Shown piece after piece: positions 6,930 through 49,474 of a stretch of 64,000 bases of DNA. Position numbers and translations under genes: made by a program. Within the stretch, counting starts at the first letter, position 1, and the number at the start of each line of letters is the position of its first letter. The DNA lies in assembly GCA_947304185.1 (NCBI GenBank), contig CAMZAM010000009.1, positions 1 through 64,000 on the forward strand. Direction: 5' to 3'. The notes beneath the pieces were generated by a model. That model was not told the origin of the DNA. It was given only the letters and a program-made list of their open reading frames with translations, and searched no databases. This DNA comes from an uncultured Bacteroidales bacterium. Its GTDB lineage: Bacteria; Bacteroidota; Bacteroidia; Bacteroidales; F082.

Positions 6930-8165
6930 ATGAAGCAGCTGATAAAATCCAAGTGTGAGGCGTATTTCGATGAGGTTGTAGCCATCCGCCGACAGCTTCA
7001 TCAGCATCCTGAACTGAGCTTCTGCGAGAAAGAAACCGCCGATCTCATAAAAAAATGTCTTGCTTCAAAAAATATTGAATATCAATCGGATATCGCTGGA
7101 ACAGGTGTTGTGGCGACGATAAAAGGGGAACCGTCATTTCGACTGGAGCGTAGCGGAATGGAGAAATCTCATTCAATTGGAGGAGATTTCTCGACTTCGC
7201 TCGAAATGACGGGAAAGGTGATCGCTTTGCGTGCCGACATGGATGCTCTCCCAATCCAAGAAGTCACCGACCTTCCTTATCGTTCTGTGAACGACGGCGT
7301 GATGCATGCCTGCGGTCATGACGCGCATACTGCGATGTTAATTGGCGTTGCATTGATACTCAACAACTTACGTGATAAGTTTTCTGGCACGATAAAACTT
7401 ATTTTCCAACCTGGCGAAGAGAAACTGCCAGGCGGAGCGTCATTGATGATAAAAGAAGGCGTCCTCAACGATGTCGATATGATTATCGGGCAGCATGTTT
7501 ATCCTGATTTGCCTTGCGGTGAAGTAGGTTTCCATGCCGGGCCGTATATGGCCTCGTCCGATGAGGTCAACATCACCGTGAAAGGCAGAGGAGGCCATGC
7601 TGCTAAGCCGGCCGAACGCGAGAATTCTCTTCTCGCTGCAGCGAAAATAGTTTCTGAATTGTCGAAATTATACCCTGAAAAGGGTGGAGATGTCTTGTTG
7701 GCCTTTGGCAGCTTCGTCGCCGATGGCACATATAACGTCATCCCGTCGGAGGTGAATCTGAAAGGTACAATGCGCACTTTTGATGAAGAGAAACGTAAGT
7801 CAATGAAAGACAGTATCTTAAAAGTTGCAAAAGAAGTGGCGTCGGAATTCGGATGCGATGCAGATGTCTTTATCGAACAAGGCTATCCTTCACTGCAAAA
7901 TGATGTTGAATTGACTGAAAAATGCGCTGCTTTCGCGAAAGAGATTTTAGGTGAAGATAAGGTGAGAGATTTGCCACAGCTAATGACAGCAGAAGATTTT
8001 GCATGGTACTCGCAAAAAGTACCGTCATGTTTCTATCGTTTAGGTACCTCTAACTCTTCGAAAGGTATAGATTTTAAACAGCATACCGCGAATTTTAACA
8101 TCGATGAAAATGCAATGAAAATTGGAATTGAAACGATGACATTTATAACAATAAATATGTTATGA
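6930..8165 (+). CDS. M20D family amidohydrolase / N-acyl amino acid deacylase
   Basis: A 411-residue dinuclear zinc hydrolase of the M20D group (hippurate hydrolase, N-acyl-L-amino-acid amidohydrolase, IAA-amino-acid hydrolase). Visible motifs are RADMDALPI, CGHDAHTAML, FQPGEE and AEDFAWY, with a dimerisation domain between them (residues about 200-300). The start is ATG 6930, 19 bases after a TATCTTTG box; an open frame extends upstream to 6372 but overlaps the divergent gene. Residues 67-94 (7128-7211) are an extra segment between the conserved ATIKG and GKVIALRADMD stretches, encoded by a palindromic repeat described separately. The stop overlaps the next start (ATGA). Natural substrate is unknown; cytoplasmic, as no signal peptide is seen. 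Confidence 0.9.
   Translation: MKQLIKSKCEAYFDEVVAIRRQLHQHPELSFCEKETADLIKKCLASKNIEYQSDIAGTGVVATIKGEPSFRLERSGMEKSHSIGGDFSTSLEMTGKVIALRADMDALPIQEVTDLPYRSVNDGVMHACGHDAHTAMLIGVALILNNLRDKFSGTIKLIFQPGEEKLPGGASLMIKEGVLNDVDMIIGQHVYPDLPCGEVGFHAGPYMASSDEVNITVKGRGGHAAKPAERENSLLAAAKIVSELSKLYPEKGGDVLLAFGSFVADGTYNVIPSEVNLKGTMRTFDEEKRKSMKDSILKVAKEVASEFGCDADVFIEQGYPSLQNDVELTEKCAAFAKEILGEDKVRDLPQLMTAEDFAWYSQKVPSCFYRLGTSNSSKGIDFKQHTANFNIDENAMKIGIETMTFITINML
7131..7212. repeat. 82-base palindromic repeat inserted in frame in the M20 gene
   Basis: Outer arms CCGTCATTTCGA (7131-7142) and TCGAAATGACGG (7201-7212) are perfect inverted copies. Inner arms GAGAAATCTC (7161-7170) and GAGATTTCTC (7183-7192) are also perfect. 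The left 39 bases recur with two mismatches at 49436-49474. The right 29 bases (7184-7212) recur exactly, inverted, at 38357-38385. The insert contributes 28 codons without a stop. Confidence 0.9.
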
Positions 8166-8752
8166 AATTACTTTTAATTATGAAGGTTTTATTGGTTTAC
8201 GCAATCCCTGAGGAAAAGATCGAGGTTAACATCCCTAATGCGGAGGTGATTTACGTTGAAACAGGCATAGGTAAGGTAAATGCAGCGATGCATACTATGC
8301 GCGCTATCTGCGAATACCATCCTGACGTGGTGATAAACTTTGGCTCTGCTGGCACTTTGAACCACAAAGTTGGTGATATCATCGTCTGTAACCGTTTCGT
8401 TGACAGGGATTTACGCAATGTCATCCTTGATGGCGTGATATCGGAGATAGAGTTCGACAGAGATGCGATCAATCGTGTGTTTCTGTCAGAACATTTAATG
8501 GAGCACGCAAAATTGATTGGCACCTGCAACACTGGCGACAGCTTCATCACTCAAGGCTCCGATATTGAAGGCGATGTCATCGATATGGAATCATACGCTG
8601 TGGCTGATGTCTGTCGTGAAATGGGAATCCCTTTCGTCGCGGTGAAATATGTTACTGACATAGTCGGACAGAATTCAAGTCAGGAATGGTTTGCTAAACT
8701 GAAGGATGCGAGAGAGGGCTTGACGAAGTTCTTTAATGACGCTGTTAAATAA
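8162..8752 (+). CDS. MTA/SAH nucleosidase-like protein (nucleoside phosphorylase fold)
   Basis: A 196-residue protein of the PNP_UDP_1 fold, similar to methylthioadenosine/S-adenosylhomocysteine nucleosidase, which releases adenine and the thio-ribose. The family signature is seen as VETGIGKVNAAM (residues about 31-42), NFGSAGTL, a phosphorylase-like VIDMESYAVADVC segment with the substrate-binding Met-Glu pair, and the late Asp in KYVTDIV. It is shorter than the usual 230 residues. The start overlaps the M20 stop by four bases; a second in-frame ATG at 8180 begins at the first beta strand and is a good alternative. It is translated with the M20 hydrolase and lies 3 bases before ygiQ. A futalosine or other nucleoside substrate cannot be excluded. 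Confidence 0.82.
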   Translation: MKLLLIMKVLLVYAIPEEKIEVNIPNAEVIYVETGIGKVNAAMHTMRAICEYHPDVVINFGSAGTLNHKVGDIIVCNRFVDRDLRNVILDGVISEIEFDRDAINRVFLSEHLMEHAKLIGTCNTGDSFITQGSDIEGDVIDMESYAVADVCREMGIPFVAVKYVTDIVGQNSSQEWFAKLKDAREGLTKFFNDAVK

Positions 8753-8755
8753 AAG

Positions 8756-10570
8756 ATGGATCTCAAATGGCTGCCGATAACGAAGAAAGAATCCGACCTG
8801 CGCGGATGGGACGAGCTCGATATAGTGCTCGTGAGTGGTGACGCTTACGTTGACCATCCCTCGTTTGGGGCTGCAGTCATCGGTCGCACACTTGAGAAAG
8901 AAGGCTATAAAGTAGGCATAATACCGCAACCCAATTGGCGTGACGACCTTCGCGACTTCCGCAAGTTCGGCAAGCCACGGCTGTTTTTCGGTGTCTCGGC
9001 AGGCTGCATGGACTCGATGGTGAACCATTACACAGCCAACAAACGCCTGCGTTCCAACGACGCCTATACACCCGGTGGAGAAGCAGGATTTCGTCCGGAT
9101 TACGCCTCTGTTGTCTATTGCACTATCCTCAAACAGATCTATCCCGACGTGCCTGTCGTACTCGGCGGCATTGAGGCTTCGTTGCGTCGAGTGACACATT
9201 ATGACTACTGGTCGGATTCTCTGAAACCAAGTATTCTCGTTGATTCTCAAGCAGATATGGGCGTTTATGGCATGGGCGAGCTGGCTAATGTCGAGATTGC
9301 AAAAGCTCTTTCTGAAGGCAAGAAAATCGACGAGATAACAGATATCCCGCAGACATTTTTTCTGAAAAAGAAATCACAAAAGGTTGAGTCTCAATGGCAA
9401 GACATAAGACTCGTGTCGCATGAGGTCTGTCTGAAAGACAAGAAACTATACGCTTCGAATTTCAAGCATGTGGAGGAGGAGTCGAACAAAAAACACGCTG
9501 CCCGACTGCTTCAGGATGTCGGTGATTTTACCCTTTACATCAATCCGCCTTATCCGACATATACCACAGCGCAAATCGACGCTGCCTTCGACCTGCCATA
9601 TACCCGCATGCCGCATCCTAAATATGCCAAACGCGGTCCGATTCCGGCTTACGAGATGATTCGTCATTCGGTGAATATTCACCGCGGATGCTTCGGCGGA
9701 TGTGCCTTCTGCACCATATCGGCACATCAAGGGAAATTTGTGGCGTCAAGGAGTAAAGAATCGATTCTTAAAGAAGTCGAACAGGTGACGCAGATGCCTG
9801 ATTTTAAAGGCTATATCAGCGATTTGGGAGGCCCGTCGGCGAACATGTACCGTATGCGCGGCAAAGACGAGTCGTTATGCGAGAAATGCGTACGCCCGAC
9901 CTGCATACAGCCTAACATCTGCAAAAACCTGAACACCGACCATCATCCGCTTATCGAGCTTTACAAAGAGGTCGATAAAAACCCTAATGTTAAAAAGGTG
10001 ACCATCGGCTCGGGCATCCGCTACGATCTGTTTTTGACCAACGACGACCCCGATGGAAAACTCGGCTATGATGAATATTTCGAGCAGCTGATGCGCCGTC
10101 ATGTGAGTGGACGTCTGAAGGTGGCGCCAGAGCAGGTGAGCGATAACGTGTTGAGACTCATGCGTAAACCACCGTTCTCACTGTTCAACAAACTGAAGAA
10201 ACGTTTCGACCAGATTAACGACAAATATCATCTCAACCAACAACTGATACCTTATTTCATATCGAGTCATCCGGCATGCACCTTAATGGATATGGCCGAA
10301 CTTGCGGTGAAAACCAAAGAGTTAGGCTATCATCTCGAGCAGGTGCAGGACTTCACTCCAACCCCGATGACATTGGCAACTGAAATCTATTATTCTGGCT
10401 ACGATCCGTATACTTTGAAACCTGTGTTTGTGGCGAAAAACAAGGAGGATAAGCTAGCACAGCAACGGTTTTTCTTCTGGTATAAGCCCGAAAACCGTCA
10501 GTGGGTGAAGCAGACTCTAAGAAAAATGGGGAAAGCCGAATGGATCACGCGGCTTTACGGCAGAAACTAA
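8756..10570 (+). CDS. ygiQ: YgiQ family radical SAM protein (UPF0313)
   Basis: A 604-residue radical SAM enzyme of the YgiQ family, function unknown. The N-terminal 280 residues are the YgiQ-specific domain (SGDAYVDHPSFGAAVIGR; GGIEASLRR). The radical SAM cluster motif is CFGGCAFC in HRGCFGGCAFCTISAHQG, near residue 317. A further cysteine group (CEKCVRPTCIQPNIC, near residue 382) may hold a second metal. The C-terminal part (LEQVQDFTPTPMTLAT; FFWYKPENR) also matches the family. It follows the nucleosidase gene by 3 bases, so it is probably in the same transcript, and its 3' end overlaps the end of the converging sanA-like gene by four bases. Length is as expected. Confidence 0.95.
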   Translation: MDLKWLPITKKESDLRGWDELDIVLVSGDAYVDHPSFGAAVIGRTLEKEGYKVGIIPQPNWRDDLRDFRKFGKPRLFFGVSAGCMDSMVNHYTANKRLRSNDAYTPGGEAGFRPDYASVVYCTILKQIYPDVPVVLGGIEASLRRVTHYDYWSDSLKPSILVDSQADMGVYGMGELANVEIAKALSEGKKIDEITDIPQTFFLKKKSQKVESQWQDIRLVSHEVCLKDKKLYASNFKHVEEESNKKHAARLLQDVGDFTLYINPPYPTYTTAQIDAAFDLPYTRMPHPKYAKRGPIPAYEMIRHSVNIHRGCFGGCAFCTISAHQGKFVASRSKESILKEVEQVTQMPDFKGYISDLGGPSANMYRMRGKDESLCEKCVRPTCIQPNICKNLNTDHHPLIELYKEVDKNPNVKKVTIGSGIRYDLFLTNDDPDGKLGYDEYFEQLMRRHVSGRLKVAPEQVSDNVLRLMRKPPFSLFNKLKKRFDQINDKYHLNQQLIPYFISSHPACTLMDMAELAVKTKELGYHLEQVQDFTPTPMTLATEIYYSGYDPYTLKPVFVAKNKEDKLAQQRFFFWYKPENRQWVKQTLRKMGKAEWITRLYGRN

Positions 10571-12942: not shown

Positions 12943-14397
12943 ATGATAACATTTTTCATAGCCCTTGCCGTCTTGATTGTCGGCTATATCGTTTACGGAA
13001 AGTTTATCGAGAAGCTTTTCGGCGCTGATCCGAAACGTGCAACACCGGCTATCACCATGGCCGACGGTGTCGACTACGTGCCTATGAAGCCGTGGCGCAT
13101 CTTCTTGATTCAGTTTTTGAATATCGCCGGCGTCGGTCCAATCGTCGGCGCTATCATGGGAGCTCAGTTCGGAACGGCTTCGTTCCTGTGGATTGTGCTT
13201 GGCAGCATCTTTGCCGGTGCCGTCCACGACTATCTTGCAGGCATGATCTCGTTACGTACAAAGGGTTCAAGTCTGCCTGAGATTCACGGCATGTTTCTTG
13301 GCAACGGCATGAAACAGGTAATGCGTGGATTCACGGTTTTATTGATGATTCTGGTGGGCGTGGTGTTTGTCAATACCCCAGCGACGTTGTTAATCAACAA
13401 CTTCACTCCAGGTTGGAACCCGTACATCTGGGTCATCATCATCTTGGCATATTATCTCATCGCGACATTGCTTCCTATCGACAAGCTGATAGGACGACTT
13501 TACCCGATTTTCGGAATACTTTTGCTCGGCATGGCGGTCGCTATCTTTGTGGCGTTTATCATTTATCGTCCCGAGATTCCTGAAATCTGGAGCGGATTAT
13601 ACAATCGTCATCCGGGAGGTGAACACTGTCCTATCTTCCCGATGATGTTTATCAGCATCGCATGCGGCGCAATTTCAGGTTTTCATGCCACACAGTCTCC
13701 GTTGATGGCACGTTGCATGGTCAACGAGAAGCAGGGACGTCCGATTTTTTATGGTGCGATGATCACTGAAGGCATCGTCGCCTTGATTTGGGCAGCCGCA
13801 GCAGCTTATTTCTTCAGTCCCGACAGCATCGTTGATGTGACAGGCAAGAGCGGAGCCGCCATCGTGGGCGTGATTGCCAACACTTGGTTTACCCCAGTGA
13901 TTGCTGTGATTACCATCCTCGGCGTCATCTCGGCAGCCGTCACCTCGGGCGATACAGCATTACGTTCGGCTCGTCTCATCATCGCCGACTTCCTGCACTA
14001 CGACCAGAAGCCCATCAAGAACCGTCTGATCATCGCCATCCCGATGTTCGCGGTGACAGCAATAATCTTGGTTTACAGCCTTGCCGACGCGAGAGGCTTC
14101 GACATGATCTGGCGTTATTTCGCTTGGGCAAATCAGGTCTTGGCAATGGTAACTCTCTGGGCTATAACGGTTTATCTTGCGAAGGAAAAGAAAAATTACA
14201 TCTTCAGCCTCATCCCTGCGATGTTCATGACGATGGTCACGATGACATACATTTTTGAGTTCCCTGCCGGAAAATATGTCGAAGGCGTAGGCTTCTCGAA
14301 TGTCGTCGCTCCGATAATTGCGGGCTGCATAACGATATTGTTCACGGTTTTGTTCTTCAATTTCCGTAGGAAATACAATAACGCCTTAAAAAGCTGA
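12943..14397 (+). CDS. cstA: CstA family peptide/pyruvate transporter
   Basis: A 484-residue inner-membrane protein of the carbon-starvation CstA family, with about thirteen hydrophobic segments. CstA relatives import peptides or pyruvate during nutrient limitation. Conserved pieces are NIAGVGPIVGAIMGAQFG, AGAVHDYLAGMISLR, ISIACGAISGFHATQSP and ISAAVTSGDTALRSARLIIAD (interrupted here for length as ISAAVTSGDTALRS). It is far shorter than the 700-residue E. coli protein and matches the compact form found in many anaerobes. It lies 8 bases after prfB and overlaps the next start by one base. In a peptide-degrading organism a peptide or pyruvate uptake role is plausible, but the substrate is not readable. 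Confidence 0.93.
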   Translation: MITFFIALAVLIVGYIVYGKFIEKLFGADPKRATPAITMADGVDYVPMKPWRIFLIQFLNIAGVGPIVGAIMGAQFGTASFLWIVLGSIFAGAVHDYLAGMISLRTKGSSLPEIHGMFLGNGMKQVMRGFTVLLMILVGVVFVNTPATLLINNFTPGWNPYIWVIIILAYYLIATLLPIDKLIGRLYPIFGILLLGMAVAIFVAFIIYRPEIPEIWSGLYNRHPGGEHCPIFPMMFISIACGAISGFHATQSPLMARCMVNEKQGRPIFYGAMITEGIVALIWAAAAAYFFSPDSIVDVTGKSGAAIVGVIANTWFTPVIAVITILGVISAAVTSGDTALRSARLIIADFLHYDQKPIKNRLIIAIPMFAVTAIILVYSLADARGFDMIWRYFAWANQVLAMVTLWAITVYLAKEKKNYIFSLIPAMFMTMVTMTYIFEFPAGKYVEGVGFSNVVAPIIAGCITILFTVLFFNFRRKYNNALKS

Positions 14398-15587
14398 TGA
14401 ATACAGCTACACGAGATTTCATCGAGTTGCATCTGAAGGATGACGTGCGCCAATTGGCGTTGCAGAAGTTTCCTGATGATGTAGATAAGGCGTTGGTGCT
14501 CAATCAGATAGAGGCTCGGCAGCTTCTGTCGAAGAAGGTGCCGTCGTGGGCTTCTAATCCCGATTTGCTGTTTCCGAGACATCTCTCCATTGAGCAATGT
14601 TCTTCCGAACTTACTGCGAAATATAAAGCTTCTATCATCGAAGGAGGTGACACGTTTGTCGACTTGACAGGCGGTCTGGGTGTCGATTCATATTTTCTTT
14701 CGGAGAAATTCAAAACCTCCTATTACGTTGAAAATCAAAAGGAACTATGTGATTTGGCGAAGCATAATTTTGAGGTTTTAGGACGAAAAATAAAGGTTGT
14801 TAATGATGATTCTGAATCATTTTTATCCAAAAATAAAGGTTTTGATTTGGTTTTCATTGACCCTGCCCGCAGGGATGTATATAACCGAAAAATGGTTTCT
14901 CTGCATGATTGTTCGCCTGATGTCATTGATTTGCAAAATATTTTGTTAAAAAATGCAAAAAATGTTTTAATCAAGGCATCTCCGATGTTGGATATTTCCT
15001 TGATTACCAACGAATTGCAAAATATTTCGGAGATTCACATCGTGTCGGTGAGAAACGAATGCAAGGAGGTTTTGATAAAGATTGAACTGGGATTTGATGG
15101 GGAAATAAAATTTTCATGTGTTGATTTAAGACAGGATTTACATGATTTACAGGATATTCATTCCGTCAGTTTTACTGAAAACGAAGAAAAATCAGCCGTT
15201 TCGACATTTTCATCGGTCGTAAAAAAATATTTATACGAGCCCAACGCCTCCCTCATGAAATCCGGCGCCTTCAAATTGGTGTCGCAGCGTTTCGGAATCG
15301 ATAAGTTGCACATTAACAGCCATTTATACACATCAGATAATCTTATTCCTGATTTCCCGGGACGTGTTTTCGAGGTTGTATGTTTTGCGCCTTATAGCAA
15401 AAAAATCAAAAAAGAATTATTAAAAGATATCACCGAAGCATCAGTTGCTACCCGTAATTTCCCTTTGAGCGCCAATGATTTACGCAAGAATCTAAATCTC
15501 AAGGAAAGCGATAAAAACTTCGTTTTCGGCACGACCTTGATAGGGGAGAAGAAGGTGGTGATTTTGGCTAAAAAATATAAAGAATGA
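14397..15587 (+). CDS. THUMP-like domain class I SAM methyltransferase
   Basis: A 396-residue predicted methyltransferase of a type common in Bacteroidota. The SAM-binding motif I is FVDLTGGLGVDSYFLS (about residues 87-102) and the motif IV region is LVFIDPARRD (about 151-160). The C-terminal third (LKESDKNFVFGTTL and upstream) resembles the THUMP-like domain that often accompanies RNA methyltransferases. The substrate is unknown; tRNA or rRNA is inferred from the domain. The start overlaps the cstA stop by one base, and the end overlaps the DNPH1-like gene by four, so the three are translationally linked. Confidence 0.8.
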   Translation: MNTATRDFIELHLKDDVRQLALQKFPDDVDKALVLNQIEARQLLSKKVPSWASNPDLLFPRHLSIEQCSSELTAKYKASIIEGGDTFVDLTGGLGVDSYFLSEKFKTSYYVENQKELCDLAKHNFEVLGRKIKVVNDDSESFLSKNKGFDLVFIDPARRDVYNRKMVSLHDCSPDVIDLQNILLKNAKNVLIKASPMLDISLITNELQNISEIHIVSVRNECKEVLIKIELGFDGEIKFSCVDLRQDLHDLQDIHSVSFTENEEKSAVSTFSSVVKKYLYEPNASLMKSGAFKLVSQRFGIDKLHINSHLYTSDNLIPDFPGRVFEVVCFAPYSKKIKKELLKDITEASVATRNFPLSANDLRKNLNLKESDKNFVFGTTLIGEKKVVILAKKYKE

Positions 15588-28351: not shown

Positions 28352-29560
28352 TTAATGTTCTCTTAAAATCTTCATTAACACCTCGATATCCTTCTTGTAC
28401 TGCTCCATGTTTTCGCTCTTCACTGGGTCGGCACTCGGTGATTTGAACTTCAACGGGTCGATGTATGTGCCGTTTTTCTGCAGACGGAAGTCGAGATGCG
28501 GTCCCGTGGCAGTGCCCGTCATTCCTACATATCCTATCGTCTGACCTTGTTTTACCTTGCTTCCCTGCGCAATGCCCTTTGCGAAGCCTTTGAGGTGCAT
28601 ATAAGTCGTGGTATAAGTGCTGTTATGTTTGATTTTCAGGTAGTTTCCGCCGCCTTTTTTATCCCAGCCTTTAGCGATGACAGTGCCGTCACCGATCGAC
28701 TGCACCGGCGTCCCACTTGGCGCCGCGTAATCGACTCCATGATGCGGACGCACAATCTTATGCACCGGGTGCATTCTCGCCTCGGAAAACGTTGAGCTGA
28801 TGCGACGATAGTTCAGCGGCGCCTTCAAAAAAGCCTTCCTCAGGTTGTCGCCGTTCTCGTCGAAGTATTCCTTTCGGCCGTTTTGCTCATAGCAGAAGGC
28901 ATATTTGCTGTCGCCGCCACTCTTGAAATAAGCCGCAAGCACGTTACCAATGCCGAAGGGAATTGTGTCGTGCACGATATATTTTTCTTCATAGATAACT
29001 TTGCACGAGTCGCCTGGCTGTATGCCGAAGAAGTCGATGGTCCAAGCGTAGATATCGGATAACTCGAGGATCAGACTGGCATCGCAGCCTGCCTCTTTCA
29101 TGGCGTTCCATAGGCTCGACTTTATCTCTACGCCTACATGTTCAACTCTCGTGATGACTTCTTTTTCGCCTTTCCACGCTGATAATGAATCGGTTAGCTG
29201 AAAAACGGCGTAGTTGGTTCTGTCGATTTCATAAATCCAGTATTTCGCCGTCGGGATGCTGTCGCGTGTCTTCAAAAACACGTATTTATTTCCGACTTTG
29301 ATCTTTCGTACGTCGAATACACCGCGATGGTTTCTGTCGATGTAGTTGACGGTGTTATAACTCACACCTTCGCGTTGCAAAATGTTAGCCAAAAACTCGT
29401 TTTTCTGCACTTGGCCTTCCATCACATCAAGTGAATCGATGCAGACGCCGTACAGATACTGAGGCTCGGCTTGTTTCTTTGTCTCTTTCGTTCCTTCCGA
29501 ACCACCTTTACAGGAAACCAGGAATAACAATACGATTAGAAATGGTGTGAATCTCTTCAT
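28352..29560 (-). CDS. M23 family murein endopeptidase lipoprotein
   Basis: A 402-residue lipoprotein with a lipobox at FLVSC (Cys about residue 17), so anchored on the outer face of the inner membrane or the outer membrane. The N-terminal 270 residues are a long stalk-like region. The M23 LytM domain lies at about 275-370, with the metal motif RPHHGVDYAA and the second motif GPHLDFRL. In the latter the usual His-X-His is His-X-Asp, a substitution seen in some active relatives. Expected activity is cleavage of peptide cross-links in peptidoglycan during growth or division. The start at 29560 is chosen because it gives a compact lipoprotein signal; an upstream TTG at 29578 would add six residues. 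It converges on the LuxR gene with 16 bases between stops. Confidence 0.9.
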   Translation of the reverse strand: MKRFTPFLIVLLFLVSCKGGSEGTKETKKQAEPQYLYGVCIDSLDVMEGQVQKNEFLANILQREGVSYNTVNYIDRNHRGVFDVRKIKVGNKYVFLKTRDSIPTAKYWIYEIDRTNYAVFQLTDSLSAWKGEKEVITRVEHVGVEIKSSLWNAMKEAGCDASLILELSDIYAWTIDFFGIQPGDSCKVIYEEKYIVHDTIPFGIGNVLAAYFKSGGDSKYAFCYEQNGRKEYFDENGDNLRKAFLKAPLNYRRISSTFSEARMHPVHKIVRPHHGVDYAAPSGTPVQSIGDGTVIAKGWDKKGGGNYLKIKHNSTYTTTYMHLKGFAKGIAQGSKVKQGQTIGYVGMTGTATGPHLDFRLQKNGTYIDPLKFKSPSADPVKSENMEQYKKDIEVLMKILREH

Positions 29561-29580
29561 AATGATTTGTTTTTTCAAAA

Positions 29581-29610
29581 TGTAGAGACGTGCCGCGGCA
29601 CGTCTCTACA
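29581..29610. repeat. 30-base perfect palindrome (14-2-14)
   Basis: Arms TGTAGAGACGTGCC and GGCACGTCTCTACA around GC, located between the M23 gene and iorB, both read leftward. It is the same design as the element at 26845. As it lies just upstream of the M23 start and downstream of iorB it may end the ior transcript. Confidence 0.82.
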
Positions 29611-38031: not shown

Positions 38032-40110
38032 ATGATAGAGCCTTCTTTAAAAAAGATACCGCACGAGATGACAATACACGGTCATACTCGTGTGGATAAC
38101 TATTATTGGCTCAACCAACGCGAGAATCCTGAGGTTCTGGAATATCTGAAGGCCGAAAACGCCTATCAGGAAGCGATGATGAAACATACAGAGCCGCTGC
38201 AAAAACAGCTGTTCGACGAGATAGTGGGGCGCATCAAACAAGACGACATGTCGATACCTGTGAAACATCATGGTTACTGGTATTATACGCGCTACGAAGA
38301 GGGGATGGAATACCCTCTATATTGCCGTAAACTCGCTAAAGAAGGCGACAATCCAACCGTCATTTCGAGCGAAGTCGAGAAATCTCCTACTGATGAGCAG
38401 GTTCTTCTCGACGGCTACCAGATGTCAAAAGGCTACACCTTCTTCGACGTCGGCGGCTATAGCATTAGTCCCAACAACGAATTGATAGCATATAGCATCG
38501 ATACAGTTAGTCGCCGACAGTATAAGATTTTCTTCAAGGAAATTGCGACAGGCAAGATGTTTTCAGAAATGATTGACAACACGTCGGGCAATATGGTGTG
38601 GGCTAACGACAACAAAACGATTTTCTATACCGTAAAGGATGAGTCGTTGCGTCCGTGCAAGGTTATGCGTCATGAACTCGGCACCGACCCGAAAGACGAT
38701 GTAGAGGTGTTTTTTGAAGATGACGACACCTTTGTTTCTTTTGTAAGTAAAACAAAATCAGAGAGATACATTGTAATAATTTCAGAAAGCACCCTGACAT
38801 CGGAGGTGCGTTTCATCGATGCCGGCCATCCGAAAGATGAGTTTAAAGTCGTAAACAGACGTCAGCATGACCTGCTTTATGGCCTTGGACACTATGGCAA
38901 TTATTTCTATATCATCACCAATGCCGATGGGGCGAAGAACTACAAGGTGATGCGAACACCAGTAAATGCTACTGAAAAAGAGCATTGGGAAGAAGTCTTG
39001 CCGCATCGCGATGATGTGCTGATTGAAGACATCGACCTGTTTTCGGAGTTTATGGTCATCGAAGAACGCTCGAAAGGCCTTGTCAATATTCGGGTTATGT
39101 CGTGGGACGGCAAAGTAGACTATTACATCAACTTCGGTGAGCCTACATACACTGTCGAAACATCAGCAAATCCTGAGTTTGACACGCATCTGTTGAGATA
39201 TGTCTACACCTCGATGACGACACCGGCCTCTGTGTATCAATATGATATGAAGGCTAAGGCGGCTGAGTTGCTGAAGCGTCAGGAGATAGTCGGAGGATAT
39301 GAACCGACTGATTACGTCACCGAGAGGCTTTATGCACCTGCAAAAGACGGCATCCAGGTTCCTATTTCGCTGGTTTACAAGAAAGGACTGATGAAGAACG
39401 GCGACAATCCGCTGGTTTTGTTCGGCTACGGCTCGTATGGCAACAGCGTCGATGCCTATTTCTCGACGGCCCGGCTCAGCATGCTCGACCGTGGCTTTGT
39501 GTGGGCTATTGCGCATATCAGAGGAGGTGAGGACTTGGGTCGTTGGTGGTATGAAGACGGAAAACTTTTGAAGAAGAAAAATACTTTCACCGATTTCATT
39601 GCTTGCGCAGAATATCTTGTTCAACAGGGGTTTACGAACAGTAAGAAAATGTTCGCCATGGGTGGTAGCGCCGGCGGACTGCTGGTGGGAGCGGTGGCAA
39701 ACATGGCACCACAGCTGTTCAGAGGCATCATAGCACAAGTGCCTTTTGTCGACGTGGTGACGACTATGTTAGACGACACAATTCCACTTACCACAGGCGA
39801 ATACGACGAGTGGGGAAATCCTAATGAGAAGGAGTATTACGACTACATGCTGTCGTATTCGCCATACGACAACGTGGAGGCGAAAGATTATCCCGCAATG
39901 CTTGTCACTACCGGACTTCATGACAGTCAGGTTCAGTACTGGGAGCCGGCGAAATGGGTCGCTAAACTGCGCGAACTCAAGACCGACCATAACCCGTTGT
40001 ACCTTCGCACGGAGATGGACTTCGGCCATGGCGGAGCGTCGGGGAGATTTGAACCATACCACGAGGTGGCGATGGAATACGCTTTTATGCTCGATTTGAT
40101 TGAAAAATGA
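38032..40110 (+). CDS. ptrB: Oligopeptidase B-type S9 serine peptidase
   Basis: A 692-residue prolyl-oligopeptidase-family enzyme that cuts short peptides after basic residues. The catalytic triad is Ser546 (GGSAGG), Asp631 (GLHDSQV) and His666 (FGHGGASG). The N-terminal beta-propeller spans about 75-410. No signal peptide is present, so it acts in the cytoplasm on imported peptides. Residues 109-118 are encoded by a 29-base copy of the palindromic repeat also found in the M20 gene; they lie in a propeller loop between conserved YCRK and VLLDG-type strands. It sits between the TonB receptor and a GH13 gene, with a four-base overlap to the latter. Arg/Lys preference is inferred from the family. 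Confidence 0.93.
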   Translation: MIEPSLKKIPHEMTIHGHTRVDNYYWLNQRENPEVLEYLKAENAYQEAMMKHTEPLQKQLFDEIVGRIKQDDMSIPVKHHGYWYYTRYEEGMEYPLYCRKLAKEGDNPTVISSEVEKSPTDEQVLLDGYQMSKGYTFFDVGGYSISPNNELIAYSIDTVSRRQYKIFFKEIATGKMFSEMIDNTSGNMVWANDNKTIFYTVKDESLRPCKVMRHELGTDPKDDVEVFFEDDDTFVSFVSKTKSERYIVIISESTLTSEVRFIDAGHPKDEFKVVNRRQHDLLYGLGHYGNYFYIITNADGAKNYKVMRTPVNATEKEHWEEVLPHRDDVLIEDIDLFSEFMVIEERSKGLVNIRVMSWDGKVDYYINFGEPTYTVETSANPEFDTHLLRYVYTSMTTPASVYQYDMKAKAAELLKRQEIVGGYEPTDYVTERLYAPAKDGIQVPISLVYKKGLMKNGDNPLVLFGYGSYGNSVDAYFSTARLSMLDRGFVWAIAHIRGGEDLGRWWYEDGKLLKKKNTFTDFIACAEYLVQQGFTNSKKMFAMGGSAGGLLVGAVANMAPQLFRGIIAQVPFVDVVTTMLDDTIPLTTGEYDEWGNPNEKEYYDYMLSYSPYDNVEAKDYPAMLVTTGLHDSQVQYWEPAKWVAKLRELKTDHNPLYLRTEMDFGHGGASGRFEPYHEVAMEYAFMLDLIEK
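38357..38385. repeat. 29-base half copy of the CCGTCATTTCGA repeat, in frame in ptrB
   Basis: An exact inverted copy of 7184-7212. It begins CCGTCATTTCGAGCGAAG and ends GAGAAATCT. It is translated here as TVISSEVEKS, in a different frame and strand from the copy in the M20 gene, so the shared DNA cannot be due to protein homology. Confidence 0.9.
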
Positions 40111-41504
40111 TAATATACCAGCTTTTCCCACGGGTCTACGGCGCCACGCCGACGAAGCGATGCGGCACCTTCAGCGACATCAGCGATGATGAGGTTGAAA
40201 GGATAAAGTCGCTGAGCGTCAGTCATATATGGCTGACAGGTGTGATACGTCACTCGGGCTGGAGAGATACCAATCCGGCTGTCACCAAAGGGAATGCGGG
40301 TTCGCCTTATGCCATCGTCGACTACTACGACATCGACCCCGATCTGGCCGACAATGAGGCGAATAGGATGGAGGAGTTTGAAAAATCCGTTGAACGTATT
40401 CATAATCACGGACTTAAAGTTATAATCGACTTCGTTCCCAATCACCTGGCACGCGAGTATAAAGGCGATTTCACTGCTGAGAATTTTTATATTCTTGAGA
40501 ATCAGAAGTTTGTTGTCCCGGCGGAAAATGCCAGTAATTATTATGAGTTCCCGGCAAAAGCCACTGGCAATGACGTGTTCTCGCCAACACCTTCGCTTAA
40601 CGATTGGTACGACACTGTAAAATTGAACTATGGGAATCGTGACACATGGCATAAGATGCTGAAAATCATGCAGTTTTGGTGTGGTAAAGGTGTCGACGGA
40701 TTCCGTTGCGATATGGCCGAGATGGTTCCCGTGGACTTCTGGAGATGGGCAATAGCTGAACTGCGTAAGTCGTTCACTGTTACGATGATAGCTGAGATTT
40801 ATCAGCCGAATCTTTATCAAAGTTACATCGAAGCTGGGTTTGATTATCTTTACGATAAGGTTGGGCTGTATAATACGTTGGAAAACATTTACCGTTACGG
40901 GCAACGTGCCGATAGCATTTCAGATGTCTGGAAAAATCTTAACGGATTGGATGACAATATGTTACGATTTATGGAAAACCACGACGAAGTCCGTTTGGCA
41001 TCACGATTTTTCATGCAGAAACCTGAAAATGCATATCCGTTTGTGGCGTTGTCAGCTCTTATGAACCGCGGCCCGTTTATGATCTACAACGGTCAGGAAT
41101 ATGGCGAAAACGCTGAGGATTCTGATAATGGAAAAACGTCGATCTTCGATTACACGTGTATGCCATCAATAGAACGTAAGGGCGAATCATCATTCGCCCG
41201 TATATTTGATTGGTATAAACAATTATTGCATTTTCGCGAATCACATCCTGCCATCATGCAAGGTGACTTTTACGACCTGATGTGGGCGAATCCATGGTAT
41301 AACAATTTTGATCCACAATATGTTTATGCGTTTTTGCGTTATCATGAGGAAGATAAATTGTTGATAGTCATCAACTTCAACCTGAATGATGGTCGAAATG
41401 TGGCGGTTGCAATACCCGATGATGCTCGTAAATTGGTTGGCGGTTGCGGATCCACATATGATTTGGTATTAAAAGCAGGCGAATATAAAATCATTGAATT
41501 ATGA
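40107..41504 (+). CDS. GH13 alpha-amylase family glycoside hydrolase, cytoplasmic
   Basis: A 465-residue GH13 enzyme acting on alpha-1,4-glucans. The catalytic residues are Asp202 (FRCDMAE), Glu230 (IAEIYQ) and Asp293 (ENHDEV); the first barrel strand motif is VIIDFVPNH. No signal peptide is present, so it works on internal glycogen or imported oligosaccharides, in keeping with the branching enzyme encoded next. It overlaps both neighbours by four bases (ATGA). Residues about 357-366 (ERKGESSFAR) are encoded by a palindromic element, just after the conserved KTSIFDY, and differ from what is usual at that place. The exact GH13 subfamily is not clear. Confidence 0.88.
   Translation: MIIYQLFPRVYGATPTKRCGTFSDISDDEVERIKSLSVSHIWLTGVIRHSGWRDTNPAVTKGNAGSPYAIVDYYDIDPDLADNEANRMEEFEKSVERIHNHGLKVIIDFVPNHLAREYKGDFTAENFYILENQKFVVPAENASNYYEFPAKATGNDVFSPTPSLNDWYDTVKLNYGNRDTWHKMLKIMQFWCGKGVDGFRCDMAEMVPVDFWRWAIAELRKSFTVTMIAEIYQPNLYQSYIEAGFDYLYDKVGLYNTLENIYRYGQRADSISDVWKNLNGLDDNMLRFMENHDEVRLASRFFMQKPENAYPFVALSALMNRGPFMIYNGQEYGENAEDSDNGKTSIFDYTCMPSIERKGESSFARIFDWYKQLLHFRESHPAIMQGDFYDLMWANPWYNNFDPQYVYAFLRYHEEDKLLIVINFNLNDGRNVAVAIPDDARKLVGGCGSTYDLVLKAGEYKIIEL
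41175..41204. repeat. 28-30-base palindromic element in frame in the GH13 gene
   Basis: Core GGGCGAATCATCATTCGCCC with outer arms GTAA and GTAT, giving the 14-2-14 layout with AT in the centre. It closely resembles the intergenic element at 62845-62874 (GGGGCAAATCATCATTTGCC core). The ends have three mismatches, as expected for an older insertion under coding constraint. Confidence 0.75.
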
Positions 41505-44417: not shown

Positions 44418-44487
44418 CGGTGAGAAATAAAGAGAGGATGCCGAAAATCTCATAAAGAGTAGGCGTAATTAAAATTATTTACAAAAA

Positions 44488-45162
44488 ATGAAAAAATTAT
44501 TTATCACAATTGCTTTCGTAGCAGCAACAATGTTCGCATCAGCACAGTTGTACGTTGGCGGTAGCCTCGGAATGGACATGCAGAATGGTAAGTACAAAGC
44601 AGAAGGTAATGGTGTGTCAATCACACAGGATATGCCAAAAGCTTTCACTTTCACATTTGCTCCAGAAGCTGGTTTTATGTTCGCTGACAACATGGGTGTC
44701 GGTTTAAAACTTGGTTTCGGTATGGGTAAAGAAGTTTCAACTGAGTACTACTATGACCCAGACTTCACAGTGAAAACAACCACCAAGACAACTATTCTCG
44801 CTTTTGCTCCTTACTTCCGTTATGTGTTTGCAGAAGTTGACAACTTCAAATTCTATGCAGATGCGCAGCTTGCATATGCAATGGAGAAACCAAAAGTAAC
44901 TTCAGAGAGCGATGGCACAACAGTTACAGTTGATGGTCCAAAGACAACAGCACTTGGCTTCGGTATCGTTCCAGGTATGGCTTATCAGCTCACCGACAAC
45001 ATTTCAATGAACTGCGCTCTTAACATCCTTGAGCTCGGTTTCACAACAACAAAGACAAAACGGACTGAGGACAATGTCACATACACAGAGACAGCCAACG
45101 ACTTTGGCTTTGGTGTTAACAACGCAACCCCAATCACAATTGGTTTCTACTACACATTCTAA
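44488..45162 (+). CDS. Outer-membrane beta-barrel protein
   Basis: A 224-residue protein with a signal peptide (ATMFASAQ, cut near residue 20) and an eight-strand-like barrel pattern: LYVGGSLGMDMQNG, APEAGFMFADNMGVGLKLGF, FRYVFAEVDNFKFYADAQLA; it ends TIGFYYTF. Threonine-rich loops (KTTTKTTI; GTTVTVDGPKTT) face outward. Codon use is strongly biased to a few codons, like the gingipain genes, suggesting high expression. Function unknown. It ends before a strong shared terminator. Confidence 0.82.
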   Translation: MKKLFITIAFVAATMFASAQLYVGGSLGMDMQNGKYKAEGNGVSITQDMPKAFTFTFAPEAGFMFADNMGVGLKLGFGMGKEVSTEYYYDPDFTVKTTTKTTILAFAPYFRYVFAEVDNFKFYADAQLAYAMEKPKVTSESDGTTVTVDGPKTTALGFGIVPGMAYQLTDNISMNCALNILELGFTTTKTKRTEDNVTYTETANDFGFGVNNATPITIGFYYTF

Positions 45163-45786: not shown

Positions 45787-45819
45787 CTCTTTTAACTTTA
45801 CTCTTTTAACTTTTAACTA
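45787..45819 (-). repeat. 33-base purine-rich repeat supplying the VWA gene stop codon
   Basis: Read on the minus strand it begins TAGTTAAAAGTTAAAAG, where TAG is the stop of the VWA gene, and ends GTTAAAAGAG. It matches the element at 5034-5066 with one mismatch, where TAG is again the stop codon of the gene on that strand. Confidence 0.8.
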
Positions 45820-47811
45820 ATAAATCCCGAACATCTTCCTCAGCACCCATTCTATTGTGATTAATCCTAAAATACTGAATAACAACCACTTAATGTTAAT
45901 CAAGTCGTCGTAACGAGTCTCCTCACGTGAAACAGATGTGATACGTTCGTCGTTGTTCAAATCTTGTATAATCTTTTGAATATCAGTGATATAGTAATGA
46001 TGACCGCCTGTCTGTGATGCCAACGAGCGCATCCGTTCGATGTCGGCAGTGAGGTCTTGGGCTTCCACACCGAGCGATTCCACCGTGAAGGTGCCGCTGG
46101 CATTGTATTCCGCGCCTCCAAACGAGGTGTGGGCGCGGTAATTGTAGATGCCTTCAGGCAACATGCCAATGTTCAGATTGTAATTGCTGTCGCCTTTGGA
46201 AAACACATATTCGTACGCATTGTTGATGGAAATATGCAGATCCGGCTCGTTTATCAGTTCGCGGCTCGGGTTGCGTAATTCTGCCGAAATGCTGATGTTC
46301 TCGGTGCTCAGATAACTCTCTTTGTGGTTGATGGTAAGTTCCTTGTCTTTTTCCGTTAGCAGGTATTTCACCGTTTTGCTGAAAATCTCGTTGAATCCTT
46401 CGTTGTTCTTATGATGGAAATATTCATAGAGTTTCCAGCGCCAGCAGCCTGTTCCGAACATAAAAGCGTGTTTGTTGCCTTCGTTATCGTTGGCAAAGGC
46501 AAGGAGTGGATTCGGAGTCTCCAAATCCATGATGTTCATCAAAAGAACGTCGTCGTGATGAGCGTTGAACGCAATCTCACAATGTGGCAACGCCAGCGGC
46601 GGATATGAAGATATTTCATTTTTGATGCCGGAGTTGATTGTGAACAACCCGAAAGCATTGTTAAACCTGCCTTTTACATCGAGGTTGGTGTTTGCCGCGC
46701 CACGCTTGATTTTCACAATATCCTGCGATTCGTTAAATGCGTCGAAATCTGAACCGATTATTGATAATGATGGAATCGACGATCTCATTGAATAATTGTG
46801 CAAAATCACCAAATCATATCGGCTCCAATCATCTACGTTGTCGTCATATCTCACATCGAATTCAAAATGATCATCCAATGCCGATTTTATTGCTGCGATG
46901 TCGGGATGCGGCGCGCCCGCAATGCACAAAACCCTATATTTTTTGTCGGTGACGTTGATGAAAATACGTCGGGACGTAGGGACGTGGCGCGCCGCGTCCG
47001 TACAAATAATATCAATTTGTTTAGTGCCTTCATCGCCCGAATCAATATTGAAATCAAAGGTTTTCGAAAATCTGTTGGATGTCACAGGCACCACCATATT
47101 TTCGACCTCGGCGCCGTCCATTTTCACCACCACATTCATGTCGGAACCCTTGAAATTGGTGGCATTGGCGGTCACGCGAAGCGGAAACAGCATATTAGCC
47201 TGCACTGTCTTGTTGTAGCGAACCTCTTTGATGGTCATGCTGGGATACGCAACGGTGTCGCCGAGCGTGACCGTATATATCGGGAAAGGATAGTTTTCGA
47301 TATTCAACTCAGGATTAATCCCTTGGTTAACAATACCATCCGATAGAAGAAGGACGGCGCCGACGTTTCTTTTATAAAACTGACGACTGATGGTAGTGAG
47401 GGCTTCTGTAATATTTGAGTATTGCTCTTTAAAAACGTCATTTCGCTCGAAATGACGACCTAGGTCAGTTACATCACTACCAAATAAAATAATTTCGACA
47501 TCATAATTCTTTCCAAATACTTCGGTAAGCGAATCGATCAGTTTTGGATATTTCGTCTTGTAAAAGACAGAGTCTTTAGTCAAAATTATCGATTCAGAGT
47601 TATCTTGAGCTAAAACGATTATCGGCTGTTCGATTTTATACGTTCTCTGCTTGATGTAAGGGTTGATAAACAGCATCACCACGGTGGCGACGACAACGGT
47701 TCGCAAGGCAAAAAGCAAAATGGTAAGTCCTCTGCCGTATTTTTTCGAGAAAAGATACAGCAGCGAAGCGTAAACCGCACCGATTGCTAATGCTATTAGA
47801 ACCAACCACAT
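45817..47811 (-). CDS. Membrane-anchored VWA-like (BatA/aerotolerance-type) protein
   Basis: A 664-residue protein common in Bacteroidota. Two membrane helices at the N-terminus (about 2-20 and 28-52) and one at the C-terminus (about 635-655) enclose a large periplasmic part. It contains a von Willebrand A-like region (IIVLAQDNSES; GAVLLLSDGIVNQG), though the metal-binding DXSXS reads DNSES. Ig-like and glutamine-amidotransferase-like segments follow. Function unknown. The start is ATG 47811; the frame opens at TTG 47832, which would lie in the promoter. Residues 119-126 and about 270-279 are encoded by two different palindromic elements, and the stop codon by a third repeat family. Confidence 0.8.
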   Translation of the reverse strand: MWLVLIALAIGAVYASLLYLFSKKYGRGLTILLFALRTVVVATVVMLFINPYIKQRTYKIEQPIIVLAQDNSESIILTKDSVFYKTKYPKLIDSLTEVFGKNYDVEIILFGSDVTDLGRHFERNDVFKEQYSNITEALTTISRQFYKRNVGAVLLLSDGIVNQGINPELNIENYPFPIYTVTLGDTVAYPSMTIKEVRYNKTVQANMLFPLRVTANATNFKGSDMNVVVKMDGAEVENMVVPVTSNRFSKTFDFNIDSGDEGTKQIDIICTDAARHVPTSRRIFINVTDKKYRVLCIAGAPHPDIAAIKSALDDHFEFDVRYDDNVDDWSRYDLVILHNYSMRSSIPSLSIIGSDFDAFNESQDIVKIKRGAANTNLDVKGRFNNAFGLFTINSGIKNEISSYPPLALPHCEIAFNAHHDDVLLMNIMDLETPNPLLAFANDNEGNKHAFMFGTGCWRWKLYEYFHHKNNEGFNEIFSKTVKYLLTEKDKELTINHKESYLSTENISISAELRNPSRELINEPDLHISINNAYEYVFSKGDSNYNLNIGMLPEGIYNYRAHTSFGGAEYNASGTFTVESLGVEAQDLTADIERMRSLASQTGGHHYYITDIQKIIQDLNNDERITSVSREETRYDDLINIKWLLFSILGLITIEWVLRKMFGIY
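46975..47004. repeat. 30-base palindromic element in frame in the VWA gene
   Basis: GTAGGGACGTGGC, centre GC, GCCGCGTCCGTAC: 14-2-14 layout with two arm mismatches, of the GTAGGGAC family. It encodes part of AARHVPTSRR, just before a conserved FINVTDKKY segment. Confidence 0.78.
47436..47457. repeat. 22-base palindrome of the CGTCATTTCG family in frame in the VWA gene
   Basis: CGTCATTTCG, CT, CGAAATGACG: perfect arms of ten bases. The minus strand reads CGTCATTTCGAGCGAA, as in the repeat at 38357. It encodes RHFERND, which separates a conserved GSDVTDLG from KEQYSN. Confidence 0.82.
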
Positions 47812-47825
47812 TTTTAATGAAAATT

Positions 47826-47859
47826 TTTGCAAAAATACGAAAAATAATTAGTATCTTTG
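47826..47859. promoter_or_regulatory. Overlapping divergent promoters of VWA gene and GT9 gene
   Basis: Plus strand: TTTG 47826-47829 and TATCTTTG 47852-47859 (spacing 22). Minus strand: TATTTTTG at 47837-47830. The minus-strand box lies between the two plus-strand elements, so the promoters overlap. Confidence 0.7.
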
Positions 47860-47878
47860 TAGATTGTTTTTGTGCATT

Positions 47879-48865
47879 ATGAAGAAATTTCTTGTCATCC
47901 AAACCGCTTCAATTGGCGATGTGATTCTCGCGACAGCCGTTGCGGAAAAGCTGCATTCGTATTTCCCTGACAGTCAAATAGATATGTTGATTAAGAAGGG
48001 CTACGAGAGCCTCTTCGGGAATCATCCCTATATAAATAAGGTGTATGCGTGGGATAAGAAACATCATAAATACCGCAATTTGTTCTCGATTTGGCGTCAG
48101 ATTCGCGATGAGCGTTACGACCTGATTGCTAATATTCAGCGTTATGCCGCCACAGGTTTCATAACCGCTTTCGGCAAGGCGAAGGAGACATCGGGATTCA
48201 ATAAAAACCCGTTCAGCTGTTTCTTTACCCATAAAATAAAGCATGAGATAGGGGTGAAGGGAGTGCATGAAGTCGACCGCAACCAAAGGCTTATTGAGCA
48301 TCTCACCGACAATAAACCTATGCGTCCGGCGTTATATCCTTGTGAAGAGATCTTTGAAAAGGTGAAGCATTACAAGGCCGACCCGTATATTTGCGTGGCA
48401 CCGTGCTCGCTGTGGTTTACAAAGCAGTTCCCGGAAGACCTCTGGGAGCAGTTTTTGCGTCAGGTTCCCGATGACTTGAAGGTCTATCTCCTTGGCGGAA
48501 AAGACGACATCGCCCTTTGCGACCGTATCATAGCCAACGTGCCGAACAAACAGATTGAGAGTCTTGCCGGACAGCTGAATCTGCTGGAATCTGCGGCTCT
48601 GATGAAGGATGCGAAGATGAACTACGTCTGCGACTCGTCGCCGATGCACCTCGCCAGCTCACAGAACGCCCCTACGACGGCAATCTACTGCTCGACGGTG
48701 GCTGACTTCGGATTCGGTCCGCTTTCGGAAGACTCGGTGGTGGTGCAGGAGAACCATAACCTGAAATGCCGTCCTTGTGGTCTGCACGGCTATAAAGAAT
48801 GTCCGAAAGAGCATTTTAACTGTGCCTATTTCATTGATATTAAAGAACTTATAGATAGATTATGA
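47879..48865 (+). CDS. Glycosyltransferase family 9 (heptosyltransferase-like)
   Basis: A 328-residue GT-B fold enzyme of the LPS heptosyltransferase family. The N-terminal motif IQTASIGDVILATAVAEKLH is diagnostic. The sugar-nucleotide half has VYLLGGKDDIALCDRI and the CDSSPMHLASSQNAPTTAIY segment, equivalent to the D-(S/T)-G-x-x-H site; here the glycine is replaced by serine. It probably adds heptose or another sugar to lipopolysaccharide core. Start ATG 47879; the frame opens at TTG 47864. It overlaps the tsaC-type gene by four bases. Confidence 0.9.
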   Translation: MKKFLVIQTASIGDVILATAVAEKLHSYFPDSQIDMLIKKGYESLFGNHPYINKVYAWDKKHHKYRNLFSIWRQIRDERYDLIANIQRYAATGFITAFGKAKETSGFNKNPFSCFFTHKIKHEIGVKGVHEVDRNQRLIEHLTDNKPMRPALYPCEEIFEKVKHYKADPYICVAPCSLWFTKQFPEDLWEQFLRQVPDDLKVYLLGGKDDIALCDRIIANVPNKQIESLAGQLNLLESAALMKDAKMNYVCDSSPMHLASSQNAPTTAIYCSTVADFGFGPLSEDSVVVQENHNLKCRPCGLHGYKECPKEHFNCAYFIDIKELIDRL

Positions 48866-49431
48866 ACACTTTTGAACAAGAAGTCGAACTCTGTGTGAAG
48901 TTGCTACAAGAAGGTAAGGTCTTTATTTACCCGACCGACACCATCTGGGGAATAGGCTGTGACGCCACTAACGCCAAAGCCATCGACAAGATTTTCAAGA
49001 TTAAGAACCGTCCCGCAGGCAAGGGACTGATTATCTTGGTCGATTCCGTCGAACGCCTGAAAGACTATGTCAAGAACCCGTCGCCGATAGCAGCCGACCT
49101 GATTAAGGCAGCGTGTAACCCATTGAGTATCATATATAAAGAATCAAAAGGACTTGCAAAGAACCTGTCGGCCGACGGCAGCGTGTGCATCCGTGTGACA
49201 ACCAACGAGTTCTGCAAAGAGGTGATACGCCGCCTCGGTCACCCTATAACATCTACATCGGCTAACCTGAGCGGCGAGCCATCGCCAGCCAACTACATCG
49301 ACATCTCGGAGACAATGAAAAAATCAGCGGACTACGTTGTGAGCCTCTATCACGATGTCATCGTGAAGCCGAAAGCGTCGACGATAATCAAAATAGACGA
49401 CGATAACACTTTTGAAATAGTACGAAGCTAA
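48862..49431 (+). CDS. tsaC: L-threonylcarbamoyladenylate synthase
   Basis: A 189-residue YrdC/Sua5-family enzyme that makes threonylcarbamoyl-AMP from threonine, bicarbonate and ATP for the t6A modification at position 37 of ANN-decoding tRNAs. Motifs: IYPTDTIWGIGCDATN near the N-terminus, KIKNRPAGKGLIILV, and the LGHPITSTSANLSGEP segment. It is the short, TsaC-like form without the Sua5 C-terminal domain. The start overlaps the GT9 stop (ATGA), and a repeat follows 5 bases after its own stop. Confidence 0.94.
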   Translation: MNTFEQEVELCVKLLQEGKVFIYPTDTIWGIGCDATNAKAIDKIFKIKNRPAGKGLIILVDSVERLKDYVKNPSPIAADLIKAACNPLSIIYKESKGLAKNLSADGSVCIRVTTNEFCKEVIRRLGHPITSTSANLSGEPSPANYIDISETMKKSADYVVSLYHDVIVKPKASTIIKIDDDNTFEIVRS

Positions 49432-49435
49432 CCTC

Positions 49436-49474
49436 CCGTCATTTCGACTGAAGCGAAGCGGAATGGAGAAATCT
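49436..49474. repeat. 39-base half copy of the CCGTCATTTCGA repeat, intergenic
   Basis: It starts CCGTCATTTCGACTGAAGCG and ends GAATGGAGAAATCT; it differs from 7131-7169 at two positions. It fills most of the gap between the tsaC-type and S41 genes, so it lies in the leader or promoter region of the latter. Confidence 0.9.

Follow-up and report, generated by a model that had tools for sequence, protein, structure and literature searches.

Palindromic repeats that insert in frame into protein-coding genes are best known from Rickettsia. Two catalogued super-families of repetitive extragenic palindromes (REPs) are relevant to the repeat described here. CGTC-tagged REPs, in the account given by the survey of Di Nocera et al. 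2013, include the Rickettsia elements RPE-4/6 and have been reported in Bacteroidetes, with G. forsetii named (PMC3733652). GTAG REPs are short palindromes linked in the literature to Y1 transposases, termed TnpA-REP or REP-associated tyrosine transposases (RAYTs) (PMC6006769, PMC8266576). The same survey notes that the recB genes of two Xanthomonas species contain different REPs at roughly the same position (PMC3733652). Here we describe a CGTC-tagged palindromic repeat of an uncultured Bacteroidales bacterium (lineage F082; assembly GCA_947304185.1), found both within and between genes in the first 64,000 nucleotides of contig CAMZAM010000009.1 (the whole of which is hereafter called the window). 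We consider it likely that this is a non-autonomous element whose in-frame copies are kept in a few tolerant protein loops, and that these loops are refilled by unlike repeats as species diverge.

The repeat resembles the CGTC-tagged REPs of the survey in its CGTC tag next to AT, its palindrome ending in AT, its prevalence as inverted dimers, many of them heterodimers, its intragenic copies, and the lack of an associated transposase, Y1_Tnp being the family searched for here (PMC3733652). Families 1-4 accept TGTC or CCTC as a terminal tag besides CGTC and have a stem of 8-9 bp, a loop of 4-5 nt and a tail that is mostly CCA, whereas in the present repeat an interrupted stem encloses a longer, variable loop and CTC predominates in the tail. 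Because these stem, loop and tail features are not shared, we do not place the repeat in any of the four families. Compared by behaviour and not by sequence, it is also like the Rickettsia palindromic elements, which are described as inserting in frame into many unrelated genes (PMC10969869, PMC3733652); it differs from them in belonging to another phylum and in sharing its loops with several unlike families in sister species. This likeness had been suggested by the first-pass annotation and is borne out by in-frame inserts in the unrelated genes M20, PtrB, RibD, KsgA and U32. From RAYT-mobilised GTAG REPs the repeat is set apart by the absence of both a GTAG tag and a neighbouring Y1 gene, although a family that shares its loops (GTAGAGACG...CGTCTCTAC) does start with GTAG. 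Xanthomonas recB, the closest precedent, concerns one gene in two species, whereas the present pattern extends over several loops, at least eight species and about six repeat kinds. Inverted repeats within translated genes are also described for nematomorph mitochondria, where both arms encode conserved protein (PMC6649704); here the arms fill variable loops. In the open-licence literature searched, no account was found of several families settling repeatedly in the same loops, and a literature search with exact strings of the repeat and its relatives returned nothing on bacterial repeats, as judged by title.

The source genome (G000, 2.08 Mb; sister and outgroup genomes are labelled G005, G011, G015 and so on) contains 137 copies of the 11-base core CGTCATTTCGA, against two for its backward control, and 56 exact copies of a 12-mer, against none. 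In the window alone, the 12-mer with up to two mismatches occurs 8 times for 7.43 expected, which is no excess over chance. A structural search for complete units finds four in the window, none in the reversed window and at most one in each of ten Markov shuffles. The first-pass annotation had recognised a dispersed repeat at four sites, inside and between genes, in several frames and on both strands; all of this stands, the sites lying at essentially the positions it gave (Table 1), the ptrB copy being a 30/30 inverted copy of 7183-7212, and none of the three coding copies bringing a stop. The repeat is not confined to these sites. Across the 36 genomes sampled from the genus (the source genome included; completeness 58-100%), eight contain 27-189 core copies and the remaining 28 at most 8. 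Elsewhere in the phylum, an extended pattern has at least one match in 35 of 147 other genomes drawn as a sample (10 of 147 for the backward form), and six of the 147 contain 10-57 matches. Two distant members of the phylum, G196 and G139, contain 57 and 32 extended matches, often as inverted pairs ~55-90 bp apart. At gathering scores, Rfam has no family covering the repeat, and an exact 37-mer of one arm has no match in viral contigs.

The anatomy of the unit is defined by 83 units (two of them overlapping in locus L007) from 50 loci, a biased sample gathered around exact CCGTC copies. The search required the outer stem, including AT and TC, and left the x and x' bases free. The unit reads CGTC + ATTTC-GA-x…x'-GA-GAAAT + CTC, with a stem of 5 bp, a GA-GA mismatch and 1 bp, closed by a longer and variable loop. 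The stem starts with ATTTC in 79 units and with ATTCC in four, and x and x' pair in all 83 (C-G in 52, G-C in 31, unpaired in none). The tag is CGTC in at least 77 units and TGTC in at least four, with AT and TC fixed by the search itself, and the tail is CTC in 62, CCT in 15, CTT in 5 and CCC in 1. Close pairs, 27 in number, are inverted with tags outward in 25 cases, with one pair tags inward and one direct; 22 of the 25 are heterodimers of a C-type and a G-type arm. Only 9 of 23 dimers of 78-116 nt have a length divisible by three, so the frame is not built into the element. When folded as DNA and compared with shuffles, the dimer in the M20 gene and the mini-palindrome at 47435-47458 fold strongly (z -6.3 and -4.8, respectively), while the two monomers fold no better than shuffled sequence (z -0.1 and +0.9), which may reflect the interrupted stem.

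Orthologous loops without the repeat are for the most part shorter, and the reading frame is kept throughout. Syntenic contigs of seven sister species and four outgroups allowed 51 window genes to be compared, and locus searches for M20 and PtrB took in 30 of the 36 genus genomes. In M20, the loop runs to 31 residues, compared with 7 in three outgroups; its length is divisible by three in 12 of 12 loci, and the solved relative yxeP can be aligned to either side of the insert but leaves the insert itself uncovered. For PtrB, the sample consists of the best 80 of 363 loci, all 80 anchored. The window loop has 20 residues, against 6 (18 nt) in 60 of the 80, some from records of other phyla; in five more it measures 42 nt with no recognised repeat, while in the 15 nearest loci it spans 42-102 nt (14-34 residues) and contains repeats of three families. 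All 80 lengths are multiples of three. In the AlphaFold model of PtrB (mean predicted local distance difference test score, pLDDT, 86.9), the insert is a short low-confidence helix (pLDDT 64 for residues 111-120) between propeller strands 96-101 and 123-127, and the model matches a solved oligopeptidase B whose sequence has a gap at the insert. In the gene 45817-47832, the loop at 47435 has 18 residues against 1 in five sisters, and a search of the own genome, allowing up to three mismatches, for a donor of the non-repeat flank of this insert returned only the site itself. The VWA label that the first-pass annotation gave this gene finds no Pfam hit at E 0.001. Its count of 7-28 added residues is only roughly right, as the loop counts include flanking residues outside the repeat. 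Orthologues that retain the extra residues while lacking the repeat, which by the first-pass annotation would have refuted its reading, are not seen among the distant ones; two of the 16 near PtrB loci (L218 and L227) do have similar residues over a decayed repeat, as is expected of an old insert.

The same loops are occupied by unlike repeats in sister species. In M20, the occupant is a CGTC dimer in G000 and G005, a CGTC monomer or remnant in G011, G032 and G035, a TTCAAAC repeat in G017, an CTCCACACTCC repeat in G025, an AATTGTCAATTATC repeat in G015 and an GGACAGAC palindrome in G026, which gives the kinds CGTC, TTCAAAC, AATTGTC and GGACAGAC overall, with a short loop in three outgroups. 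In PtrB, the 15 nearest loci and the window copy contain six CGTC monomers (two decayed), three copies of a TCATTCC variant, three CGTC dimers or combinations, two GGGCGAAT palindromes and two GGACAC palindromes (one decayed). Unlike palindromes across species are also present in the genes 14397-15587, 40107-41504 and 8162-8752 and in loops of 45817-47832. Short-pattern counts, which catch ordinary coding DNA as well, were used in this comparison only where the alignment agreed. In the gene 8162-8752, for instance, the GTAGAGACG-type copy is clearer in G015, and G026 and G032 have a 42-bp palindrome unrelated to it. In 40107-41504 and 8162-8752, places that hold GC-rich repeats in other species are taken in sisters by AT-rich palindromes of 34-42 bp, which may be further mobile families.

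A prediction written beforehand stated that loops of RibD, KsgA and a U32 peptidase, which lie outside the window and have the repeat in G000, would contain another family or be empty in some sister, and would be short in outgroups; 12 genomes were searched. The sister half of the prediction held in three of four loops (RibD, KsgA and U32 site 2). In RibD, there are CGTC dimers in G000, G035 and G032, a TCC monomer in G015, GTAGAGACG palindromes in G011 and G026 and another GTAG palindrome in G005, with no recognised repeat in G017 or three outgroups. The dimer in the RibD loop of G035 (L184) is apparently interrupted by a second hairpin (CCCGAGCGAAGCGAGAGCTTTTGCCAAAGGC...), as if a repeat had entered a repeat. 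U32 site 2 contains CGTC in G000, G026, G017 and G011, GTAG in G005 and G032, and GGACAC in G015. The KsgA loop contains CGTC in G000, G035 and G005, a partial unit in G032, and six nucleotides in G015, G026 and G011; no match to it was found in G017, and the outgroup G025 has 54 nt with no recognised repeat. Every length in the RibD, KsgA and U32 rows is a multiple of three. A species tree of 37 genes joins G000 with G015, and this nearest pair differs in seven of seven loops (M20, PtrB, the 47435 loop, RibD, both U32 sites and KsgA), the difference in PtrB, RibD and U32 site 1 being between CGTC-type variants.

These patterns could in principle be inherited, the inserts being ancient and differing only through mutation. 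Some occupants are indeed shared and decayed, as in PtrB of L218 and L227 and in the M20 occupant common to G011 and G032, but unlike families in one loop, and empty loops within the clade in KsgA and the gene 45817-47832, speak against descent. On a PtrB tree built without the loop, the occupants require at least 10 changes among 16 clade rows with five states, and a single clade is rejected by the approximately unbiased (AU) test for F1TCC (p-AU 6e-7), F3 (2e-4) and F4 (0.005); the state labels are our own and were given before the tree was built, and the states to test were chosen afterwards. Plain descent is thus refuted for the PtrB loop, which is the loop tested on a tree, and the other loops speak against it independently of a tree. 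As a general account, we regard it as very improbable.

A second alternative is that loop alleles move between species by short-tract homologous recombination, with the repeats as passengers that are not actively inserting today. Distant PtrB lineages do share the same occupant together with neighbouring residues, and relative to the rest of the gene, flank identity is +0.57 for 21 same-allele pairs against -2.77 for 99 others (3/5000 permutations). In the PtrB sister pair L224/L225, the 60 nt left of the loop are 78% identical against 93% elsewhere, and G011 and G026 share a RibD loop without a single difference over 60 nt. However, the flanks of same-allele PtrB loci are only ~82% identical, which leaves recent transfer unsupported, the identical RibD tract is not clearly distinct from its surroundings, so that recent transfer is unsupported beyond the loop, and recombination leaves unexplained how each family first reached a loop. 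As the whole explanation it is possible but doubtful, and we see transfer of loop alleles as one part of the refilling.

Two further alternatives concern the data and the protein. Swapping could be an artefact of binning or assembling repeats from metagenomes, and the named near relatives are metagenome-assembled or uncultured genomes. Among the best 80 of 363 PtrB loci, the nearest named relatives are such Bacteroidales, many from red deer, water buffalo, yak, goat and horse, and 'Candidatus Limimorpha' is among the next-nearest. An artefact is nevertheless hardly credible, given that the frame is kept in every case, that gene sequence lies on both sides of the insert, and that the assembly RUG079 (L223) has the PtrB insert of G011 with one base changed. 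Ribosome skipping of inserts is known elsewhere, and the strong fold of the dimer would suit either skipping or removal of the inserts from mRNA. Skipping would not impose lengths divisible by three or the lack of stops in translation, both of which are found in all tested loops, and we consider loss of the inserts by either route extremely unlikely.

The enzyme that moves the repeat was sought among Y1 transposases, a TnpA-REP of this type having been proposed by the first-pass annotation. The source genome does encode two Y1_Tnp genes, and GTAG-type REPs are linked to such enzymes, but no CGTC repeat lies within ~1.5 kb of either gene and both sit among other palindromes. Moreover, of the eight repeat-rich genomes only three show any Y1_Tnp match, which in one of them is partial (some of these drafts are 76-82% complete), while 25 of the 28 repeat-poor genus genomes do have one. 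The survey of 2013 likewise found no transposase beside CGTC repeats (PMC3733652). Mobilisation by a genome-encoded Y1 enzyme is therefore quite unlikely, and the proposal is unsupported. In the source genome, L031 (C5:9746-10090) and L032 (C31:9842-10183) are Y1 transposase-like genes with motifs YIENQKEHH and YIKNQKEHH, like subclass 1.2 as described in PMC6006769, each set among its own palindromes (GCCCCGAAGGGGC; GCGTGCC/GGCACGC). Subclass 1.2 genes are generally said, in that description, to have no typical terminal structures (PMC6006769).

An unsupervised scan for 13-mers in at least five gene neighbourhoods found 52, against none in a shuffled control, and returned the CGTC repeat, the AGTTTGAAG repeat, the AGAGACGCACGGC palindrome, the promoter-like TATTTTTGCAAAA and a few others. 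Besides CGTC, five further kinds of repeat were distinguished. A family-free scan gives more hairpins than the codon-shuffled mean in 11 of 12 species; the surplus is clear in some, such as G005 (12 vs 3.0) and G011 (16 vs 4.3), and marginal in others, namely G026 (7 vs 6.7), G027 (5 vs 4.7) and G035 (2 vs 1.7).

Several points weigh against the reading of tolerant loops that are refilled. Firstly, U32 site 1 shows no second family: six of the seven clade species have CGTC variants there and G017 has a partial unit. Outgroup loops are not short at this site (81-123 nt) and only partly conform in RibD, where a length of 60 nt is common to the outgroups and four sisters, so that the RibD repeat replaces other sequence rather than being added. 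Secondly, three of the six repeat kinds come from the unsupervised scan and the rest were distinguished by eye; the GGGCGAAT, GGACA and CAATTATCAATT kinds, recognised in this way, recur elsewhere in the fetched contigs and are less well established as families. Thirdly, all genomes are drafts and nearly every named relative is a metagenome assembly; neither an individual insertion event nor a target duplication, as expected of a MITE, was seen, the relatives being too distant for the junctions to be fixed; Y1_Tnp was the only enzyme family searched, and none was found beside the repeat; and translation of the inserted copies is predicted from the sequence. Finally, the co-location of unlike repeats depends on the null model. 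Palindromes of at least 10 bp in 44 aligned genes (seven of the 51 were dropped: four whose orthologues were too scarce or too short, and three adhesin-like genes removed by hand) form 17 co-located unlike pairs between species, against ~2.1-2.2 under uniform placement (0/2000); a few are diverged copies of one hairpin, and 15 remain without them. When placement follows variable columns, the 17 pairs compare with a mean of 12.7 (361/2000), which is no excess, and stems of at least 11 bp show a modest one (11 vs 3.9; 19/2000), this null being partly circular in that inserts themselves create variable columns.

Co-location as proof of targeting fails against the variable-column null, and since the excess is gone under it, tolerance of a few loops is favoured over targeting: few loops would accept inserts, and these would be hit repeatedly. 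In the mechanism that we propose, CGTC copies would spread through the genome by means of an enzyme not identified here, and genic copies would persist only if they leave the reading frame open and the protein can accommodate the added residues, which confines them to a few loops. The five further kinds of short repeat would be filtered likewise in this gut Bacteroidales clade, so that during species divergence the same loops may be occupied, decayed, emptied and refilled by unlike repeats. Refilling, we infer, would draw on fresh insertions, on deletions mediated by short direct repeats and, to some extent, on loop alleles passed from one species to another. Decay seems to proceed by deletion: at the intergenic 49436 site, G015 retains only CCCGTCAT, which looks like a deletion scar, and the 47435 copy, probably a dimer with its centre deleted, points the same way. 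At that intergenic site G011 has another CGTC variant and G026 another palindrome.

Table 1. Repeat copies and the genes that contain them in the window
Feature	Position	Strand	Remark
M20 peptidase gene carrying the dimer	6930..8165	+	start at 6930 follows our reading of the open reading frame
CGTC-type dimer (type C arm, 18-nt spacer, type G arm)	7131..7212	.	in frame in the M20 peptidase gene
Probable decayed GTAGAGACG-type palindrome	8456..8487	+	in gene 8162-8752
GTAGAGACGTGCCGCGGCACGTCTCTAC palindrome	29582..29609	.	just upstream of minus-strand gene 28352-29578
Oligopeptidase B (ptrB) gene	38032..40110	+	insert between two strands of the N-terminal beta-propeller domain
CGTC-type monomer (type G arm)	38357..38386	+	in frame in ptrB
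GGGCGAATCATCATTCGCCC palindrome copy, probably decayed	41177..41202	+	in frame in gene 40107-41504
Gene labelled VWA by the first-pass annotation	45817..47832	-	repeats in several loops in one or other sister
Mini-palindrome	47435..47458	.	in frame in minus-strand gene 45817..47832
Intergenic CGTC-type monomer	49436..49474	+	

Two other features of the window are recorded. The GTAG-type palindrome upstream of the gene 28352-29578 is apparently at the same place in five species with four different cores, so repeat variants would swap at intergenic sites too. A DUF805b RNA motif (Rfam RF02914, 42.8 bits) lies at 44431-44465, just upstream of the gene at 44488.

A more speculative possibility, which we hold only tentatively, is that a fixed small set of loops serves as exchange sites for repeat cassettes, through one shared process at DNA ends such as cruciform cleavage followed by capture of another repeat. 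If this were true, CGTC and GTAG types, catalogued as separate super-families, would replace one another on the time scale of speciation, and a shared DNA-end process would drive the diversity of protein loops. The many species of this clade let the same loops be compared filled, decayed, empty and refilled, which makes it testable what moves CGTC repeats, how copies choose or survive coding sites, and how often mobile DNA writes segments of protein. The arm interrupted by GA-GA offers a defined substrate for finding the enzyme, and the loops offer a natural record of small mobile DNA reshaping proteins.

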